From: a virus
Strand: one strand, 5' to 3'
IMG/VR virus record: IMGVR_UViG_3300022542_000912
Coordinates: 1-20,509 of that record
Length of the DNA stretch: 20,509 nt
Positions 641-6,835 of the stretch are shown piece by piece. Positions within the stretch are counted from its first letter, which is position 1. The number at the start of each line of letters is the position of its first letter. Made by a program: the position numbers and the translations under genes. A model generated the notes under the pieces. It saw nothing but the letters and a program-made list of their open reading frames with translations, was not told the origin of the DNA and made no database searches.

Positions 641-3013
641 TTGAAATTCAACGCTAATGACGATATACAGATAGCAATGGCTCGTGGTAGCCAGATGAAT
701 ATACGAGTTATAGCAGAGAAAATGAGTTTCCGCGAGTTCGCAGAGTTTTGTAGTAAACCACAGAAAGGAGAGAAGCATGAAGCGTATTTCCTACGAGGAG
801 TGCCAGAAGTTGAAGAATCGTATCAAAGCGGAAGCGGTAAAATGTACTATGACGGCAGGTTTAGGCATGACAGTAGCATTAATTGCGCTGACTTCCTTAT
901 TATTGACGCTGATCATAGTGACAATAGTCCTAGTGAGTGCCATGCTATTCTCAGATCTAATGATATAGTACATTTTATTTATACCACACACAGCCATACT
1001 GCCGAAAAGAATAATTTCCGCGTTGTCATCCCTTGTCATGTGAGTTGTAAGGCTAATATGCCTGAGACGGCTAAAAAGATCATAGAATTATTCGACGGTG
1101 GTATAAAATATGTAAAAGAAATGGGTACATGGAGCCAGGCTTGGTTCCTTCCAACTAGAGACAATCCAGAAGACGGGTTATTTGAACACTACTACTATAG
1201 CAAAGGAGAGGTATATGAAGAAGTGGTGGGGCGAGATGAAACCAGCTCTGACAGCACTCACAATACTGATAGTAGTGATACCAGTGGTGTTACAGATCAT
1301 AACTCGATTGATAATGTAATAGAAACAATGCGGGAATATAAGGAAGGGACTCACCATGCTATGAGAACTTATAGTTATGGTATGATTCAAGATGGAGTTC
1401 CGGCCAAAACAGTAATTGAGACAATGAGGAGCATAATGCATGAACATAGATCTGACAGTAATCGCAATGAAACAAGATATGGAGAAATTGAAAGGATCGT
1501 TAAAGGCGCAAGAGTTAATGATAACAACGATTGCTCGATCTTTGGAGGAGATGGTGAGGAGTCAAATTCTAATGGTAGCGGAGTTAAGGGAGTTGAGGGA
1601 GGAATCGGCAATGGTGACTCGAATGATGAGGAAGCACAAGATGGCAGTGGATCTATTCGAGAAGGAAATGAAGAAGGATCAAGAGGAAGAGAAGAGATAT
1701 ATGGAAAGCAGTTAGCTTGGCCTCCAGGATTAATGGGAGAATTAGCTAAAGCAGTATATGAATTCTCACCTTATCCTAATAGAACGATAAGTATTGTAAC
1801 GGGACTAGGGTTAGTGGCTGGTATAGCAGGTCGCCGGTTCAATGTAAGCGGAAATGGCTTGAATCTTTATATAACATTGCTAATGGATACTGGAGGTGGT
1901 AAAAGTGTCATATCAAAATTTATTAATCGCGTACTTAATGACGCTAGTCTGTTTACTGGGGCTAATATATTTACTGGATCTGGAAGGTACACTGGACCCA
2001 AGGCTCTCATGGATGATCTTAATCATAAACGATGTATTGTTTCTGTATTCACTGAAGCTGGGTTTATGTTCAGATCAAAAAGCGGGGACCAAGACGGATT
2101 GACAAGAAGTATATTGGACTTGTATGGTAGCTCAGGTTATGGATGCGTTTCCGCTGGTGGAAGTTATTCTAATGATAAAAATGATATACCAGCTGTAGCA
2201 TCGCCCTGTTTTAGTATGATCAATGAATCTACACCAGATGTATTCCTTGAAACCATAAGAGATGGGGATAAAACCGGTGAAATCAATAGAATGACCGTAT
2301 TAAGGGTTGAACAAGAGGTATTTAAGCTAAATAGAACCATGAAATATGATATAAGCGGAAAACTGATGGAGAAGATAAAGCAGCTTATGACCAGATGTAA
2401 TGTAACTCAGACAAAAGATGATGCTGATGTTACAAATTTCCGCGTTACTGATGAGATGTATGGCTTTGCTGATGAAATGAAAAGGACTGCATGGGATTGT
2501 AAGGAAGAGGATCCAATCAGATTTAGTATGATGCAAAGATCAGCAGAGAAAGTGTTTAAGATTGCATCACTACTTACTGTGCTAAACTCTTCTGGGATAA
2601 AAGGAGAAAGAGAATTGGACATTGATCAAGATGCATGGGATTGGGCACGAGATTTCCATACACATGAAATGGAAGGATTAGAAACATTCTTCAACAGGGA
2701 TGATGATTCAGATCCATTTGTATTAGCATGTTCTATTGTATACCCAGTAGTCAAGAAGATACTAACACAAGGCTATAAAGATAGAAAGATGCAACCTAGC
2801 AGCATGCAAGCAAAGAAGAACAGATTTCCGCTCGCTATGTTGAGGCGTGCTTTGAAGAACAATAGGTGTGTGAAAGCCTTAGGCAATAAGAATGTTAGTG
2901 GTATAGATAGGATGATTAAATGGATGAAAGAAGAGAAATATTTGAAGATGGTCTTGGATATACAAGCTAATGTCGTTGAAGTAAACAAGAGTTTTCTAGA
3001 GCTTGGAGAATAG
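641..3013 (+). CDS. AEP-type primase fused to DUF3987-like helicase
   Basis: This 790-residue protein probably primes and unwinds phage DNA. Residues about 40-200 resemble an archaeo-eukaryotic primase (prim-pol) core: metal-binding DAD at 89-91 in FLIIDADHSD, a His-rich stretch with H117 and H119 followed by R127, and SQAWFLPTRD (165-174). Residues 225-292 resemble a PriCT helical domain. A low-complexity Gly/Ser/Asn/Glu linker spans about 303-350. The C-terminal part has a degenerate Walker A, MDTGGGKS (415-422), TEAG (471-474) as a Walker B-like site and SPCFSMINES (521-530) as a sensor-like strand, in the manner of DUF3987 helicases. The start is TTG, one base after the HTH gene stop, with only a weak ribosome site (GGGAT), so coupling to the upstream gene is likely; the exact start is uncertain, but ATG at 677 has no better site. 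Confidence 0.85.
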   Translation: MKFNANDDIQIAMARGSQMNIRVIAEKMSFREFAEFCSKPQKGEKHEAYFLRGVPEVEESYQSGSGKMYYDGRFRHDSSINCADFLIIDADHSDNSPSECHAILRSNDIVHFIYTTHSHTAEKNNFRVVIPCHVSCKANMPETAKKIIELFDGGIKYVKEMGTWSQAWFLPTRDNPEDGLFEHYYYSKGEVYEEVVGRDETSSDSTHNTDSSDTSGVTDHNSIDNVIETMREYKEGTHHAMRTYSYGMIQDGVPAKTVIETMRSIMHEHRSDSNRNETRYGEIERIVKGARVNDNNDCSIFGGDGEESNSNGSGVKGVEGGIGNGDSNDEEAQDGSGSIREGNEEGSRGREEIYGKQLAWPPGLMGELAKAVYEFSPYPNRTISIVTGLGLVAGIAGRRFNVSGNGLNLYITLLMDTGGGKSVISKFINRVLNDASLFTGANIFTGSGRYTGPKALMDDLNHKRCIVSVFTEAGFMFRSKSGDQDGLTRSILDLYGSSGYGCVSAGGSYSNDKNDIPAVASPCFSMINESTPDVFLETIRDGDKTGEINRMTVLRVEQEVFKLNRTMKYDISGKLMEKIKQLMTRCNVTQTKDDADVTNFRVTDEMYGFADEMKRTAWDCKEEDPIRFSMMQRSAEKVFKIASLLTVLNSSGIKGERELDIDQDAWDWARDFHTHEMEGLETFFNRDDDSDPFVLACSIVYPVVKKILTQGYKDRKMQPSSMQAKKNRFPLAMLRRALKNNRCVKALGNKNVSGIDRMIKWMKEEKYLKMVLDIQANVVEVNKSFLELGE

Positions 3014-3265
3014 ATATCTCCCGCCTATCTCCTCCTGACTCCTCAAATGCGCCTGTATTTATCTATAGATATCAGGTACTTAGGACGAAAAAAGACGAAA
3101 GGGGGAAAATTTTCGGGGGGGCGCGCGAGCGAGAGAAAATGGCCGAAAGGGAACGATGGCACACAAAAGCTTCCCTTTTTACTCTAAGTTACTAATATAT
3201 ATATAGTTTCTTAGGAGATTATAGGGAGATATCCAGGGTATCACATGAGATAAGGGGAAAACACG
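3014..3265. other. Intergenic region after primase
   Basis: This 252-base gap has an AT-rich background with a short GC-rich island (about 3115-3130, beginning with seven G) and the palindrome GAAAATTTTC. It holds a likely terminator hairpin (3146-3180) and, near its end, CAGGGTATCACA (3234-3245), a 12-mer also found at 9541-9552 upstream of the capsid gene. I see no convincing gene. Confidence 0.5.
3146..3180 (+). terminator. Possible rho-independent terminator after primase
   Basis: AAAGGGAA (3146-3153) pairs perfectly with TTCCCTTT (3171-3178) across a 17-nt loop and runs into a T tract (TTCCCTTTTT). The stem is only 8 bp with a large loop, so termination may be partial, leaving some read-through into the resolvase gene. 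Confidence 0.4.
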
Positions 3266-3673
3266 TTGATTTTAGAATTAGTCTTAGCTTGGCCACCAAG
3301 TTCGGGGTCATATTACGCTTATAACAGGCGAACAAGGTATGTAACTGCAAAAGGTAAGCAGTACCAACAAATAGTAGCGGAAGATGTTCACGAACAGTGC
3401 GGGCAGGGCCTAATGCTTGAAGCTCCTCTTGAACTTTCCGCCATCTTTTACCCACCAAATAAAGGGATTTGGGACTTCGACAACCATCTTAAGGCATTAC
3501 AGGATGCATTAACACTAAGTAAGGTGTGGACGGATGATTCCGCCATAAGTCAGATGCATTGTTACACCGGTGTGGTAGTTAAGGGCGGCAGGATATTACT
3601 ACGGATAGAACCCGGCGGGCCTAGCCTACCCTTAGAGCTACAAGGAGGCTCACCCTTCGACTTTCTCGAATAA
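3266..3673 (+). CDS. rusA: RusA-family Holliday junction resolvase
   Basis: This 135-residue protein belongs to the RusA family of homodimeric, metal-dependent endonucleases that cut four-way DNA junctions during recombination or before packaging. The family signature is WDFDNHLKALQDAL followed by WTDDSAI. The acidic residues fall at D70, D72 and D91 with K76, the same numbering as the catalytic set known for E. coli RusA (120 aa), so an active enzyme is expected. The start is TTG with an AAGGGG site at 8-nt spacing; no in-frame ATG is available upstream. A Gly/Pro/Leu-rich tail of about 20 residues extends past the usual family length. It is the last gene of the rightward replication module and converges with the leftward small-ORF operon. 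Confidence 0.92.
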   Translation: MILELVLAWPPSSGSYYAYNRRTRYVTAKGKQYQQIVAEDVHEQCGQGLMLEAPLELSAIFYPPNKGIWDFDNHLKALQDALTLSKVWTDDSAISQMHCYTGVVVKGGRILLRIEPGGPSLPLELQGGSPFDFLE

Positions 3674-3692
3674 TATAGGCTAGGAGTAGGGT

Positions 3693-3720
3693 ATAAGAAA
3701 GGGCCTCTTAGAGAGGCCCT
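3693..3720 (-). terminator. Hairpin terminator between convergent operons
   Basis: AGGGCCTCT (3700-3708) and AGAGGCCCT (3712-3720) form a perfect 9-bp stem with a TAG loop. Read leftward the stem is followed by TTTCTTAT, so it suits the leftward small-ORF operon best. Read rightward it has an A-rich upstream flank but no T tract, so it would act weakly after rusA. Confidence 0.65.
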
Positions 3721-3730
3721 ACGGAAGCCA

Positions 3731-3811
3731 CTAGATAGGGAACATCAGAATAAGATAACCACAAAATGCCATCATAGCACCCAGCACTACACTTTCTATA
3801 AAGTTCGTCAC
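3731..3811 (-). CDS. 26-residue single-span membrane peptide
   Basis: This very short ORF starts at GTG (3811-3809) and ends at TAG (3733-3731). Its ribosome site is a perfect AAGGAG (complement of 3819-3824) with 7-nt spacing, the same spacing as the two upstream leftward ORFs. The peptide starts MTNFIES and continues as one hydrophobic stretch (VVLGAMMAFCGYLILMFPI), long enough for a single transmembrane helix. It lies between an 11-bp hairpin (3832-3857) and the operon terminator (3700-3720), so it has its own translation signals inside a defined transcript. A holin-like peptide, a type I toxin-like peptide or a small membrane regulator are all possible; the sequence cannot decide. Confidence rests on the ribosome site and composition, not homology. 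Confidence 0.55.
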   Translation of the reverse strand: MTNFIESVVLGAMMAFCGYLILMFPI

Positions 3812-3831
3812 GTCACAACTCCTTATAAATT

Positions 3832-3857
3832 CCCTAAGCCTAGAATTAGGCTTAGGG
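3832..3857 (-). repeat. 11-bp perfect hairpin in leftward operon
   Basis: CCCTAAGCCTA (3832-3842) and TAGGCTTAGGG (3847-3857) pair perfectly around GAAT. It lies between the 105-aa ORF and the ribosome site of the 26-aa peptide. Read leftward it is followed by AATTTATAAGGAG, only weakly T-rich, so an mRNA processing or attenuation element is as likely as a terminator. Confidence 0.6.
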
Positions 3858-3865
3858 GTTATAGT

Positions 3866-4183
3866 TTAGGCTAAGTCGTTATGAATCGAGTTAGCCAACT
3901 CGGCGATACCTTCGAAAAGCTTAAGGTAGCGGTAGTCGTTATCACTACCGTTCTCCTTAACGAACGCATCGACTTCTTCCGCGCTCTTTACACCTTCCCG
4001 TAGGTAGGCGTAGAACTTAGGCTTAAAACCGCGAGCGTTTTTATTAGCACCGTACTCCTTCCAATAGCCTAGGCTATCCTTAAAGCTACACCCGGCTTTT
4101 ATTAAAGCCTCGATGGCCTCTCCTTTATTAGAGTCGTTATCTAGCGTTATATCGCGAAATTCTAGGTTAGTTAATTTAGACAT
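3866..4183 (-). CDS. 105-residue protein of unknown function
   Basis: The ATG start at 4183-4181 is preceded by GAGGAG (complement of 4191-4196) with 7-nt spacing, inside a 16-nt leader repeat shared with the ORF at 4420. The protein is soluble, charged and probably helical: a helix-rich unit EAIEALIKAGCSFKDSLGYW (22-41), a basic middle (GANKNARGFKPKFYAY, 45-60), then an acidic helix (SAEEVDAFVKENGS, 67-80) and a C-terminal helix. The stop codon lies inside a TTAGCCTAA motif. Codons are strongly biased to TTA, CTA and TCG-containing triplets, unlike the late genes. The first unit resembles residues 16-44 of the 46-aa ORF next to it, so the two may be paralogues. I do not recognise a family; regulator, inhibitor of a host system or replication accessory are all open. 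Confidence 0.8.
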   Translation of the reverse strand: MSKLTNLEFRDITLDNDSNKGEAIEALIKAGCSFKDSLGYWKEYGANKNARGFKPKFYAYLREGVKSAEEVDAFVKENGSDNDYRYLKLFEGIAELANSIHNDLA

Positions 4184-4189
4184 TTTATA

Positions 4190-4205
4190 TCTCCTCGTTT
4201 TTAGG
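4190..4205 (-). repeat. Translation-initiation leader repeat, copy 1
   Basis: TCTCCTCGTTTTTAGG (plus strand) contains the GAGGAG site of the 105-aa ORF on the other strand. The identical 16-mer occurs at 4427-4442 before the 46-aa ORF, and the match continues for five more bases with one difference. Confidence 0.7.
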
Positions 4206-4224
4206 TTAAGAATTTAACCCTTAG

Positions 4225-4248
4225 CTTTAGCCTAATTTTAGGCTAAAG
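4225..4248 (-). repeat. 11-bp hairpin of inverted TTAGSCTAA motifs
   Basis: CTTTAGCCTAA (4225-4235) and TTAGGCTAAAG (4238-4248) are perfect inverted repeats with only TT between them. It lies between the 46-aa and 105-aa leftward ORFs. It could be an operator formed of two facing motif copies or a hairpin in the transcript. Confidence 0.6.
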
Positions 4249-4254
4249 GTAAAG

Positions 4255-4273
4255 GCTAGGGCTTAGCCCTAGC
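4255..4273 (-). repeat. Inverted repeat just after the 46-aa ORF
   Basis: GCTAGGGCT (4255-4263) and AGCCCTAGC (4265-4273) are complementary around one base; as RNA this gives about 7 bp with a 5-nt loop. It begins 7 bases past the stop of the 46-aa ORF and, read leftward, is followed by CTTTACCTTT, so it may be a weak or conditional terminator before the 105-aa ORF. Confidence 0.5.
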
Positions 4274-4279
4274 TTAAAG

Positions 4280-4420
4280 TTAGCCTAATTCTTCTAGCGC
4301 TAGCCTATACGCTTCTTCCGCTTCTTCGAAGCTTAATCCCGAATCTACTATCGCTAGTATAGCTAGCTCTTTAGTAGGGTGCCCTAGTACTAATTCTATA
4401 ATATAGTCGTCGACGTTAAT
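4280..4420 (-). CDS. 46-residue ORF with probable ATT start
   Basis: The frame from 4420 to 4280 encodes INVDDYIIELVLGHPTKELA followed by a helical acidic segment ending in SFEEAEEAYRLALEELG. No in-frame ATG, GTG or TTG exists, but ATT at 4420-4418 lies exactly 7 nt after a GAGGAG site (complement of 4428-4433), the same site and spacing as the 105-aa ORF downstream. This points to initiation at ATT, which is rare but known (infC of E. coli). Residues 16-44 resemble residues 20-45 of the 105-aa protein, sharing an A-I-x-A core and a Gly-x-Ser-Phe turn. The stop overlaps a TTAGCCTAA motif. It is the first gene of the leftward operon, with a -10 box at 4478-4473 and a 5' hairpin at 4444-4460. 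Alternatively it is an untranslated leader with a fossil ORF. Confidence 0.5.
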   Translation of the reverse strand: MNVDDYIIELVLGHPTKELAILAIVDSGLSFEEAEEAYRLALEELG

Positions 4421-4426
4421 AGCCCT

Positions 4427-4442
4427 TCTCCTCGTTTTTAGG
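4427..4442 (-). repeat. Translation-initiation leader repeat, copy 2
   Basis: This is the second copy of TCTCCTCGTTTTTAGG, 237 bp from the first, carrying the GAGGAG site of the ATT-start ORF. The duplication of leader plus ribosome site suggests that the two small ORFs arose by duplication or share a translational control signal. Confidence 0.7.
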
Positions 4443-4443
4443 C

Positions 4444-4460
4444 TAAGGAAGTATTCCTTA
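4444..4460 (-). repeat. Hairpin at the 5' end of the leftward transcript
   Basis: TAAGGAA (4444-4450) and TTCCTTA (4454-4460) pair perfectly around GTA. With transcription predicted to start near 4466, this 7-bp hairpin would sit close to the 5' end of the leftward mRNA, where it could stabilise the message or bind a regulator. Confidence 0.45.
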
Positions 4461-4472
4461 ACCGTTAAGCTA

Positions 4473-4478
4473 ATTTTA
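4473..4478 (-). promoter_or_regulatory. Leftward -10 box (TAAAAT) of small-ORF operon
   Basis: The complement of 4473-4478 reads TAAAAT, one change from the -10 consensus. Its centre is exactly 34 bp downstream of the centre of the palindrome at 4499-4520, the same geometry as TATAAT and the palindrome at 337-358. The -35 position (TATATT) is poor and overlaps the palindrome. Confidence 0.5.
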
Positions 4479-4498
4479 GGCTCGTATCGAAGCGAAAT

Positions 4499-4520
4499 AT
4501 ATACCTCTAAAGAGATATAA
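4499..4520. promoter_or_regulatory. 22-bp palindromic operator, copy 2
   Basis: The left half-site ATATACCTCT (4499-4508) is identical to that of copy 1; the right half AGAGATATAA (4511-4520) is close. A 2-bp AT centre separates them in both copies, and AATATATACCTCT (13 bp) is shared exactly. It lies immediately upstream of the leftward -10 box. Confidence 0.6.
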
Positions 4521-4531
4521 GGCTAATTAAT

Positions 4532-4552
4532 TTAGCCTAAAGTTAGCCTAAA
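4532..4552. repeat. Tandem TTAGCCTAAA motifs, 11-bp period
   Basis: TTAGCCTAAA occurs at 4532-4541 and 4543-4552, about one helical turn apart, between the operator and the iteron array. The core TTAGSCTAA also occurs exactly at 3864-3872, 4227-4235, 4238-4246, 4280-4288 and 4438-4446, all inside the leftward operon region. Confidence 0.6.
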
Positions 4553-4560
4553 TCGACGCG

Positions 4561-4678
4561 CACCACCTACGTAAGCACGCTACTTAAGTGCACCACGTAG
4601 GTACCAGATTACACCACGTAAGCACTAGACTACACAAGTACACCACGTAAGCATTATCCTACCATACGTAAGCACAAC
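4561..4678 (+). repeat. Five iteron-like repeats (CACCACGTAAGCA type)
   Basis: Units beginning CACCACGTAAGCA or close variants start at about 4561, 4591, 4612, 4641 and 4662, at intervals of 30, 21, 29 and 21 bp. The core ACGTAAGCA is exact at 4569-4577, 4616-4624, 4645-4653 and 4666-4674, and degenerate (ACGTAGGTA) at 4595-4603. Intervals near 21 and 29-30 bp are close to two and three helical turns, so the sites would lie on roughly one face of the DNA. This resembles iterons of a replication origin or an activator array for the late operon; no cognate protein can be named. Confidence 0.6.
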
Positions 4679-4841
4679 CTATATATGGAAAACAGATATG
4701 CTTATCCGATTAGCGGCCCCTACCCCTGGTTTCGCGCGCACACCAATATGTTCTGGGGTCACTCGCATAATTTTCATACTTCCCCCATTTTATAACCACT
4801 AATATATTCTGAAAAATCATTTCAATTCTCCCCTTTACTTT

Positions 4842-4855
4842 CCTTCCTTTATAGG
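4842..4855 (-). repeat. Inverted copy of CCTATAAAGGAAGG
   Basis: The complement of 4842-4855 reads CCTATAAAGGAAGG, identical over 14 bases to 216-229 in the divergent control region. Both copies are in non-coding DNA, which favours a shared functional site over chance. Confidence 0.4.
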
Positions 4856-4872
4856 CTAAGCTTTCCGTATCG

Positions 4873-4891
4873 TTCAAATTTTTTATTTGAA
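4873..4891. repeat. AT-rich inverted repeat in late-operon leader
   Basis: TTCAAAT (4873-4879) and ATTTGAA (4885-4891) pair around five T residues and are followed by more A/T tracts. It lies about 55 bp before the small terminase start. It may belong to the late promoter region or be a weak hairpin in the leader; no properly spaced -35/-10 pair is visible. Confidence 0.35.
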
Positions 4892-4945
4892 AAATTTTTA
4901 TAGAAAAATCAAGGACTTACGCTAACACTAGCTAGGATTTATGAA

Positions 4946-5311
4946 ATGAGTGATAAGAAAAAATCATATGACGAAGATAAAGTCACTCTATTCCAGGTGG
5001 ATTATGACGGACATCTTATACAGAGAGCAGCTAGAGGCATGTCACTAGCGGAAGTCTGTGATATGTACGGCTATAGTAGCGGCGATCTTCAGGGTGAAGA
5101 CAAGAAGTTCCTGATATATAATTACCAGAAAGGTAGAGCTGCTGGTATTGATTCTGCTATAGACTATCTATTTAAGCACATGCAAGCTAAAGGCGGGGCA
5201 GGAGCTTGTACATCTTACCTAGTTAGATTCGCCAAAGATTGGGAAGAGAATGAAGCAGCAGATAAAGACGTTGCTGGTAAGAAGTCTTTTAAGATTACGT
5301 TTGCTAATTAG
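4946..5311 (+). CDS. Probable terminase small subunit
   Basis: This 121-residue protein is assigned mainly by position directly before the large terminase (TAG stop immediately followed by its ATG) and by size and fold type. Residues 27-65 look like a DNA-binding helix-turn-helix region (RAARGMSLAEVCDMYGYSS, then a basic helix around KGRAAG), and residues 66-100 look like an oligomerisation helix pair. Small terminase subunits recognise the packaging site on concatemeric DNA and stimulate the motor; the family is too diverged for a sequence match by eye. The start is ATG 4946 with AGGA at 4934-4937. An ATG at 4941 opens only a two-codon frame. It is the first gene of the late operon. Confidence 0.65.
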   Translation: MSDKKKSYDEDKVTLFQVDYDGHLIQRAARGMSLAEVCDMYGYSSGDLQGEDKKFLIYNYQKGRAAGIDSAIDYLFKHMQAKGGAGACTSYLVRFAKDWEENEAADKDVAGKKSFKITFAN

Positions 5312-6835
5312 ATGGCCAGTCAAGAAGCCTTGCTAGCTGAGTTCGAGGCTATCCATTATAAACCACTAGACTTAGCGGAAGTCTTTGAGATAGACGAGAA
5401 GTTTGGTGGAGGGGAAAGTGCTAGTAATGATGAAGAGACTCATTATGTAGCATCACCTATATGCACAAAGTTTCACAAGGATGAGTCATTCATAAGATCA
5501 TTAATCGGCCCTATAGGCAGCGGAAAATCTGTCGCTTGTATTAATGAGATGTTTATTAAGAGTATTGCGCAGGAGCCATACAAAGGGGTGCGCAAGTCTC
5601 GTTGGGTGGTAGTTCGGAACACATATAGAGAATTAATCGATACCACAATTGCTACTTACGCCGATTGGTTTGAGAACCTAGGAACATGGCGTAAGATGGA
5701 TATGAAGCATACTATAGTTTTACCGTTAGAAGATGGTACAACTATGAATATGGAAGTCATGTTCAGAGCGCTTGATAAGCCTGATGACATTAAAAAGTTG
5801 CTATCTCTTGAATTAACTGGAGGTTTTTTAAATGAGTGCAGGGAAATTCCTAAGCAGGTTCTTGATATGCTTATTGGGCGAGTTGGTCGCTACCCTTCTA
5901 AGCGTGATGGCGGGGCTACATGGTGGGGTGTTATTATGGATACTAACCCGCCCGACAGTGATCATTGGTTTCATAATCTCTTTGAAGAGGAAATACCTGA
6001 AGACTTTGCTATATTCCATCAACCGTCCGGTCTAGCGGATGATGCAGAGAATGTTGAAAATTTACCGTCTCGTTATTATGAAAGAATGTCATTCGGTAAA
6101 GACCCAGAGTGGATTAAAGTATACGTTCATGGTCAGTACGGGTTTGTGACTGACGGAATACCAGTTGTACCAGAGTTCCATGATCATCAACACATAGTAG
6201 ATGATATCGGTTGGGATGAAGAGAAAGACGACATCCTTTACATAGGAGTCGATTTTGGCAGAACTCCTGCAGCAGTATTTGCAAAAGAAGTTGATGGTCA
6301 AGTGCAAGTGTTTGATGAGTTATGTACTTTTGGAAACTCAGTTACCAATTTCTCATCTCTCGTCGCAGAGCGAATAAAAGGCCACTACGCACGTGGAAAG
6401 CACGGGAGAGTGGAGATCGTGGCTACAGGCGATCCTGCAGGAGAGAATCCTGGAGAGCAGATAGATGATACCTGTATTGATATAATGAACAACGCTGGCA
6501 TACCTATGGAGCCAGCGGAAACGAACAACTTTACAATAAGGCGGGAAGCTGTATCTATACCACTAACTACCTTAACTATGCGCGGAGTTCCGCAGCTCGT
6601 CATTGGAAGGAAGTGCAAGAATCTTTGTAAAGGTATGAACGGCGGCTACAAGTATAAGCGTATGCAAGTATCAGGAGAAAAGTTTCAATTGAAGCCTGAT
6701 AAGAATAAATATAGCCATGTCTGTGAAGCGTTGCAATACCTGCTTCTAGGAATGGGCAAAGGGTATGATGTATTGGATTCACATAATGTTTCTATGAAAC
6801 ATAAAGTAATTGGCGCACTAGGGAATAATCGATAA
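5312..6835 (+). CDS. terL: Terminase large subunit
   Basis: This 507-residue protein is the packaging ATPase-nuclease that drives DNA into the prohead through the portal. The ATPase part shows Walker A GPIGSGKS (66-73), a Walker B strand ending GGFLNE (170-175) with E175 as the likely catalytic carboxylate, and a coupling motif MDTNPP (209-214). The RNase H-like nuclease part shows D314 in IGVDFG, D374 in TGDPAG, and KYSHVCEALQYLLLG (466-480), where Glu472 takes the place of the usual last aspartate. Length is typical. It follows the small subunit with no gap and precedes the portal by one base, so the three are clearly co-translated. The full set of motifs suggests an active enzyme. Confidence 0.95.
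   Translation: MASQEALLAEFEAIHYKPLDLAEVFEIDEKFGGGESASNDEETHYVASPICTKFHKDESFIRSLIGPIGSGKSVACINEMFIKSIAQEPYKGVRKSRWVVVRNTYRELIDTTIATYADWFENLGTWRKMDMKHTIVLPLEDGTTMNMEVMFRALDKPDDIKKLLSLELTGGFLNECREIPKQVLDMLIGRVGRYPSKRDGGATWWGVIMDTNPPDSDHWFHNLFEEEIPEDFAIFHQPSGLADDAENVENLPSRYYERMSFGKDPEWIKVYVHGQYGFVTDGIPVVPEFHDHQHIVDDIGWDEEKDDILYIGVDFGRTPAAVFAKEVDGQVQVFDELCTFGNSVTNFSSLVAERIKGHYARGKHGRVEIVATGDPAGENPGEQIDDTCIDIMNNAGIPMEPAETNNFTIRREAVSIPLTTLTMRGVPQLVIGRKCKNLCKGMNGGYKYKRMQVSGEKFQLKPDKNKYSHVCEALQYLLLGMGKGYDVLDSHNVSMKHKVIGALGNNR

Follow-up and report, generated by a model that had tools for sequence, protein, structure and literature searches.

What does a compact leftward unit of three small open reading frames (ORFs) do at a junction where the surrounding genes point the other way? 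The question is raised by positions 3700-4560 of the virus record IMGVR_UViG_3300022542_000912, whose 20,509 bases, analysed whole and hereafter called the window, carry primase-like, RusA, terminase and head-tail adaptor genes, with other genes arranged in a late-type order. The unit lies between rusA (3266-3673 +) and a small terminase gene (4946-5311 +; named from its position before the large terminase gene terL, and without a library match), both rightward, as a first-pass annotation of this DNA had remarked in proposing an undescribed control system. The nearest relatives of the window TerL are those of Vibrio phage VA-RY-3 and Cronobacter phage Ss1 (52-53% identity), with Burkholderia phage BcepC6B next (42%). 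Here, I argue that the cassette is real and self-contained and is one member of a conserved early-type locus, and that its ORF2 is a member of a fast-evolving family of small helical proteins, not an orphan. The favoured reading, to which I give a probability of about 55%, is that, in a podovirus lineage with Ss1 and VA-RY-3 as relatives, the unit serves as the immediate-early leftward cassette, most probably for taking over the host or for control early in infection. What is observed directly is the homology, the place and direction of the genes, the copied leader, the hairpins with the terminators, and the base composition; the function would be an extrapolation from these.

The products of the unit had been called unrecognisable, which holds in so far as no library names the ORF2 family, but a hidden Markov model (HMM) search with the 105-aa protein, as had been suggested, places it in a family with members in 21 public records (L numbers below), including phages Ss1, VA-RY-3 and PVA7, gathered by profile scans and one DNA-element search. 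ORF2 scores 98.4 bits against an HMM built without window sequences, and a seven-sequence profile recovers members in six loci outside its seed, at E 4.4e-8 or better. The 21 records include near-duplicates (L006/L010, L009/L019, L024/L103, L071/L101 and L114/L116), the last pair having been recruited via an unrelated DNA element and not via the protein. In all 18 records that contain TerL too, the family gene is found upstream of terL and is read from the other strand, a count from which two weak matches were excluded, namely L026, which also has the opposite orientation (E 0.0046), and L032, which breaks the rule by sharing the strand of terL (E 5e-6); 32 loci with a more distant TerL and at least 2.5 kb upstream gave no family match. 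The slot is therefore conserved within the lineage, and not beyond it at this sensitivity. Variability of the slot among phages sharing the terminase, which had been put forward as a check, is thus not what was found: judged from the sequences, the slot is conserved and the small satellite genes are variable.

In the closest relative, contig IMGVR_UViG_3300022542_001146 (L003/L004/L015; TerL 96% and ORF2 77% identical), ORF2 and ORF3 are present and ORF1 is missing, the leader hairpin and CTAAAAACGAG leading directly into the ORF2 start; a pattern search found ORF3 in no other contig. Record L006 holds two core-gene paralogues, each with its own upstream region and terminator, and a third upstream-region-like stretch beyond them. 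Within its positions 660-2200 a set of elements (a G-rich tract, an upstream region, a leader, a small gene and a terminator) is repeated in tandem, and the two paralogues differ strongly in codon usage (CA 0.10 vs 1.33). In L110 (PVA7), TerL and the family gene seem split into several annotated pieces or frames, possibly owing to sequencing errors in the deposited record.

The immediate-early reading draws on gene order in the cultured relatives. In Ss1, the leftward genes begin with SS1_02 and SS1_01; beyond these, on the far side of the record start, come small genes without known function and then those for resolvase, helicase, polymerase and ligase. Gene order is alike in VA-RY-3, and in both phages the structural genes run opposite to the leftward operon, an arrangement typical of early and late operons that diverge from each other. 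Because the family gene is second in a leftward operon that enters the replication genes, an immediate-early role is favoured for the window unit. Upon entry, host RNA polymerase would transcribe the cassette leftward; the leader hairpin may shield the messenger or tune its translation, the hairpins after ORF1 and ORF2 would reduce read-through, with products declining in order, and the final terminator would halt transcription before it collides with the oncoming rusA. The products might then target a host component or the phage's own early promoters, bringing about take-over or early control. The cassette first proposed, placed between early and late genes and serving control or acting against the host, agrees with the divergent junction, the unit's own terminator and the early-operon relatives; the slot is not, however, the site of a variable acquisition.

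The accompanying suggestion of a lysis/lysogeny function fares worse. A lysogeny, superinfection-immunity or toxin-antitoxin module would fit the small genes, the divergent junction, the membrane-like 26-aa peptide and the self-contained character of the unit, but library scans assign none of the products to a family of repressors, integrases, toxins or antitoxins, the window proteins scanned (in a 20.5-kb fragment) include none that is recognisable as a repressor or an integrase, and the phages with homologues in their early operon have neither an integrase nor a repressor listed in their records. Such a module is very improbable.

Several results count against an immediate-early cassette. 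The early-operon argument rests on the relatives, since replication genes of the window clade run rightward: primase and rusA both do so, and the cassette is left isolated. The promoter that had been claimed for the unit was not borne out, sigma-70-like sites being at chance level in the window (5 vs 4.7 expected, standard deviation [s.d.] 2.1); the best promoter pair upstream of ORF1 reached p=0.255 against shuffles, and 4 of 15 family leaders fell at p<0.1. For the unit, scans of Pfam, PHROGs, NCBIfam and PADLOC gave no match above curated cut-offs and named no function. Leader folding speaks for the cassette in that it is stronger in 18 leaders than in 49 controls (mean z -1.68 vs -0.42; Mann-Whitney p 0.004) and stands at z -1.9 for the ORF1 leader of the window, and against it in that it is weak in several members (z -0.5 in L003, +0.4 in PVA7). 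A structure search of viral models likewise cuts both ways: its two best matches, of 207 and 193 aa, have probability 1.00, the longer being equal in length to SS1_01, but E values of 0.026 and 0.033 only.

Along the minus strand, the unit is preceded by six CTTACGTRG-like repeats, a palindrome and a leader hairpin, after which come GGAG-7-ATT and ORF1, hairpins, a second leader copy, GGAG-7-ATG and ORF2, a further hairpin, GGAG-7-GTG and ORF3, and the final terminator (Table 1). The architecture first described, with three small ORFs at an identical 7-nt spacing, a 5' hairpin, a hairpin after each ORF and a closing terminator, was accordingly recovered. Terminator-like sites number 6 in positions 3000-5500, against 2.2 (s.d. 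1.6) in shuffles, and terminator-like hairpins follow genes in the window (by scan) as well as in L003, L006, L009, L025 and L116 (by eye); Rfam and tRNA scans gave no matches. ORF1 is devoid of any ATG, GTG or TTG because its coding DNA contains no TG. Two leader copies, 237 nt apart, precede ORF1 and ORF2 and so flank ORF1, from which it follows that ORF1 arrived with, or by, leader duplication. ORF1 is weakly like the N-terminal part of the ORF2 family (3.4 bits, reached by 5 of 2000 shuffles). As a separate observation, (G)GAATACT words recur directly before the start codon of the family gene in L011, L024, L025, L036, L071, L108 and L110, and the window leader hairpin includes AAGGAATACTT.

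Table 1. Positions in the window of the leftward unit and its associated elements.
Feature	Position	Strand	Description
CpA/TpG exclusion zone	3812..4560	both	CpA and TpG nearly absent, in genes and non-coding DNA
ORF1	4280..4420	-	46 aa; GGAG-7-ATT, possible AUU start
ORF2	3866..4183	-	105 aa; core slot-family member; relatives SS1_01, S1R3Y_000008
ORF3	3731..3811	-	26 aa; hydrophobic, membrane-like peptide; GTG start
Six CTTACGTRG repeats (at most 1 mismatch)	4567..4672	-	Possible regulator sites; similar repeats in L003
Palindrome TATATCTC-TTTA-GAGGTATA	4498..4519	-	Possible operator or promoter element
Leader hairpin	4441..4463	-	10 bp, then CTAAAAACGAGGAG; same leader directly before ORF2 in L003
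Leader copy 2	4190..4223	-	34 nt, 82% to 4427-4460; before ORF2; marks ORF1 insertion/duplication
Terminator-like hairpin (4255-4273) and 44-nt palindrome (4215-4258)	4215..4273	-	After ORF1
12-bp hairpin	3831..3858	-	Between ORF2 and ORF3
Final terminator-like hairpin	3700..3720	-	Convergent with rusA; equivalent hairpin after ORF3 in L003

The part of the analysis that would surprise a specialist is compositional, and no mechanism is defended for it. A density of TTAG, CTAG and GCTA had been noticed in the unit; the fact underlying it is that CpA and TpG are nearly absent. On the sense strand of 3721-4560, rho(CA) is 0.08 and rho(TG) 0.41; positions 4184-4282 and 4421-4560 contain neither dinucleotide, ORF1 contains one CA, and TA and CG are elevated in their place. 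The lowest 500-nt rho, 0.08 at 4051-4550, compares with a window median of 1.10. Under a synonymous-codon null conditioned on the amino acids and on the phage's own codon usage, CA+TG stands at z -5.2 in ORF1 and -5.9 in ORF2, against +0.55 (s.d. 0.94) in 42 control chunks. The aberrant composition and codon use ascribed to the unit as a whole is therefore a property of ORF1, ORF2 and the non-coding DNA, and not of ORF3 (z +0.6).

A separate origin had been read from this composition. Chance horizontal acquisition, with a composition that is merely the donor's, would account for base and codon choices so sharply unlike those of the flanks; against it, homologues fill the same slot in divergent phages, the non-coding DNA is depleted too, and the closest relative is less depleted (0.44 in L003 vs 0.13 in the window). 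Of the CA/TG steps in ORF2, 13 are peculiar to L003 and 3 to the window, whereas the corresponding counts in two flanking stretches are in balance (13 vs 14, and 3 vs 3). Ten of the 13 steps peculiar to L003 read TA or CG in the window, a sign that the sequence changed where it stands; on the tentative reading set out below, swaps to TA and CG would reflect direct avoidance of the CA/TG step. Since the exclusion is common to homologous loci and to neighbouring non-coding DNA, a separate origin is unneeded, and acquisition by chance is scarcely credible.

The exclusion recurs among the relatives, which were compared after the CA/TG measure had been picked on viewing the window; that choice and the near-duplicates among the records limit the confidence. 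In the complete genomes of Ss1, VA-RY-3 and PVA7 the genome-wide minimum lies at this locus (0.56, 0.32 and 0.35, respectively). In 19 of the 21 family records, the 500-nt window with the lowest value in the available sequence is no more than 700 nt from the family gene, L022 and L105 being the misses; windows that count as near make up 3-45% of each locus, and as the minimum of L036 is only 0.94, its near-gene placement means little. Background windows, 2,740 of them from 80 loci that lack the family, all stay at 0.5 or above. Likewise, stretches with at most 8 CA+TG per 250 nt occur in 14 of 18 family loci and in 1 of the 80 others, and in neither L114 nor L116, which were added later; the single stretch outside the family, in SPO1, contains a poly-A run and is not comparable. 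In Ss1, VA-RY-3, L071, L101 and L102 the depletion falls not in the family gene but in a small gene beside it or in non-coding DNA that follows it.

When nine of 16 coding regions, those that are depleted, are pooled (window ORF1 and ORF2, L003, L006a, L009, VA-RY-3 gene 7, the first gene of PVA7, L025 and L024), CA counts 33 against some 148 expected and TG 48 against some 150, so that the depletion is strand-symmetric. The seven unpooled regions disagree among themselves: in L006b and L022 TG is avoided but CA is not, and the other five (Ss1_01, Ss1_02, VA-RY-3 gene 8, L036 and L071) are at 0.73 or above for both. Avoidance of UG on the sense strand, which would delete internal start codons, was discarded as a complete explanation, CA being depleted too in the pooled regions; a CRISPR protospacer-adjacent-motif or restriction-site cause was considered and set aside because just one genome zone is affected. 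Among the titles and abstract openings returned by literature searches, none described the ORF2 family or CpA/TpG depletion. It is advanced only tentatively that a zone of about 1 kb at the immediate-early junction is kept nearly free of CpA and TpG on both strands, coding and non-coding DNA alike, so far that ORF1 lacks a canonical start codon and may begin at AUU. The cause would be either selection against an activity that reads CA/TG in the DNA or RNA that the cell encounters first, or a localised transition process in replication or repair. If true, either version would amount to a level of phage-host conflict, or of phage DNA biology, not described before; in any event, a sharp, locus-confined and strand-symmetric exclusion recurring in divergent phages is a clean, testable anomaly.

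Could the locus instead be mainly a replication-initiation zone, in which the small genes ride along while the CpA/TpG exclusion and the hairpins serve unwinding or primer RNA? A CA/TG-poor non-coding stretch does follow the family gene in Ss1, VA-RY-3, PVA7, L071/L101 and L102, and it combines purine/pyrimidine runs and CTTATAAATCAA-like words with a core rich in AT; a 20-mer, AAGTTACTAATATATATATA, is moreover shared by the window and relatives, as listed below. In the window, however, the element sits beyond rusA, outside the unit, the depletion peaks in ORF1/ORF2 and not in the element, and there is no GC-skew switch beyond what leftward coding explains; this explanation is accordingly unlikely. 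The element itself, a possible replication origin, was located at about 3040-3250 in the window, 6800-7160 in L109, 41920-42205 in L108, 6690-7080 in L101 and 6650-7060 in L102; the AT-core 20-mer is common to the window (at about 3190), L003, VA-RY-3, L114 and L116.

The DNA just upstream of the unit bears on another possibility, that ORF2 is a DNA-binding regulator with two small helix-turn-helix (HTH)-like domains, binding the CTTACGTRG repeats or the AGAGGTATATA palindrome and switching early to late expression. Repeats and palindrome do lie just upstream of the unit, between divergent operons; CTTACGTRG occurs 13 times in the window against 4.95 expected, including the six sites in Table 1. 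The palindrome announced in the first pass is present, its operator role being possible only, and L003, L006 (copy b) and L102 have the element before the family gene as well. CTTACGTRG-like 8-mers are not, on the other hand, among the repeated 8-mers of other intergenic regions.

Structure provides a lead only. Two AlphaFold models of ORF2, built from 5 and 14 sequences, are all helical and are best defined in their C-terminal half (mean predicted local distance difference test [pLDDT] scores over the whole model of 80.1 and 82.2). Comparison with solved structures gave weak matches, to Pit-1 (Z 4.8) and HNF-1A (Z 4.2) for the C-terminal half, and to Mos1 (Z 3.9) and Lrp-type regulators (Z 3.3-3.4) for the N-terminal half, and RecX_HTH1 matched 1 of 12 family members at E 0.016. 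Several of these are DNA-binding domains, which would suit a regulator; all Z values are nevertheless below 5 and mixed with those of unrelated helical proteins (14-3-3, designed bundles), and a Foldseek search of the PDB gave no match with E below 0.001. A regulator of this kind is rather doubtful. In other searches, tblastn of ORF2 against annotated phages gave no match, a single plasmid match at E 2 and the best PDB sequence match, ribosomal eL22 at E 0.11, were disregarded, and the T7 Gp2-like RNA polymerase inhibitor profile PF16857 matched none of the window ORFs, SS1_02 reaching 12.4 bits against a cut-off of 27.

Two further features concern DNA elsewhere in the window and its relatives. 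A 15-mer within the palindrome, searched with a pattern derived from the two window sites themselves, occurs twice in the window, both times on the minus strand. The second CTWWAGAGGTATATA site (336-350) stands before a second leftward frame, which suggests that this frame and the main unit may be co-regulated. That second frame leaves the window at its end (1-156 and 101-425), and its leader is likewise CA/TG-poor. The intergenic region before the small terminase gene carries, on the leftward strand, a G-rich tract (for example GGGGGTGGGGG in the window clade, CCCCCTCCCCC in the Ss1 clade), present in the window, L003, L006, L009, L011, L012, L024, L025, L036 and L071; it is possibly a G-quadruplex or a packaging or replication site.

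To sum up, an orphan cassette becomes a protein family with a fixed place and with cultured relatives in Ss1, VA-RY-3 and PVA7. The prediction is that the family would act first in infection, and inhibitors of host machinery and of defence systems are plentiful among the early proteins of phages.

Among known systems, the closest likeness is to SS1_01/SS1_02 of Ss1 and S1R3Y_000007/000008 of VA-RY-3, which share the slot and orientation of the window unit relative to the terminase genes; SS1_01 and S1R3Y_000008, annotated only as hypothetical, are the ORF2 family members, and CA and TG are scarce in the first small gene or on either side of it. In contrast to the window, the family gene of these phages is about twice as long, is not itself CA/TG-depleted, and leads into a long leftward early operon. 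The genes of T7, the SPO1 module and N4 that are expressed early in infection likewise form a row of small genes, mostly without recognisable domains, yet they show no CpA/TpG exclusion, the lowest 500-nt rho being 0.66 in T7, 0.62 in SPO1 (1-25 kb) and 0.86 in N4 (1-25 kb). Morons are autonomous cassettes, and the window unit resembles them in having its own terminator, as does L006 in repeating a unit of upstream region, leader, gene and terminator; unlike morons, the window cassette has a promoter not above chance and a position that is conserved across the lineage, not scattered.

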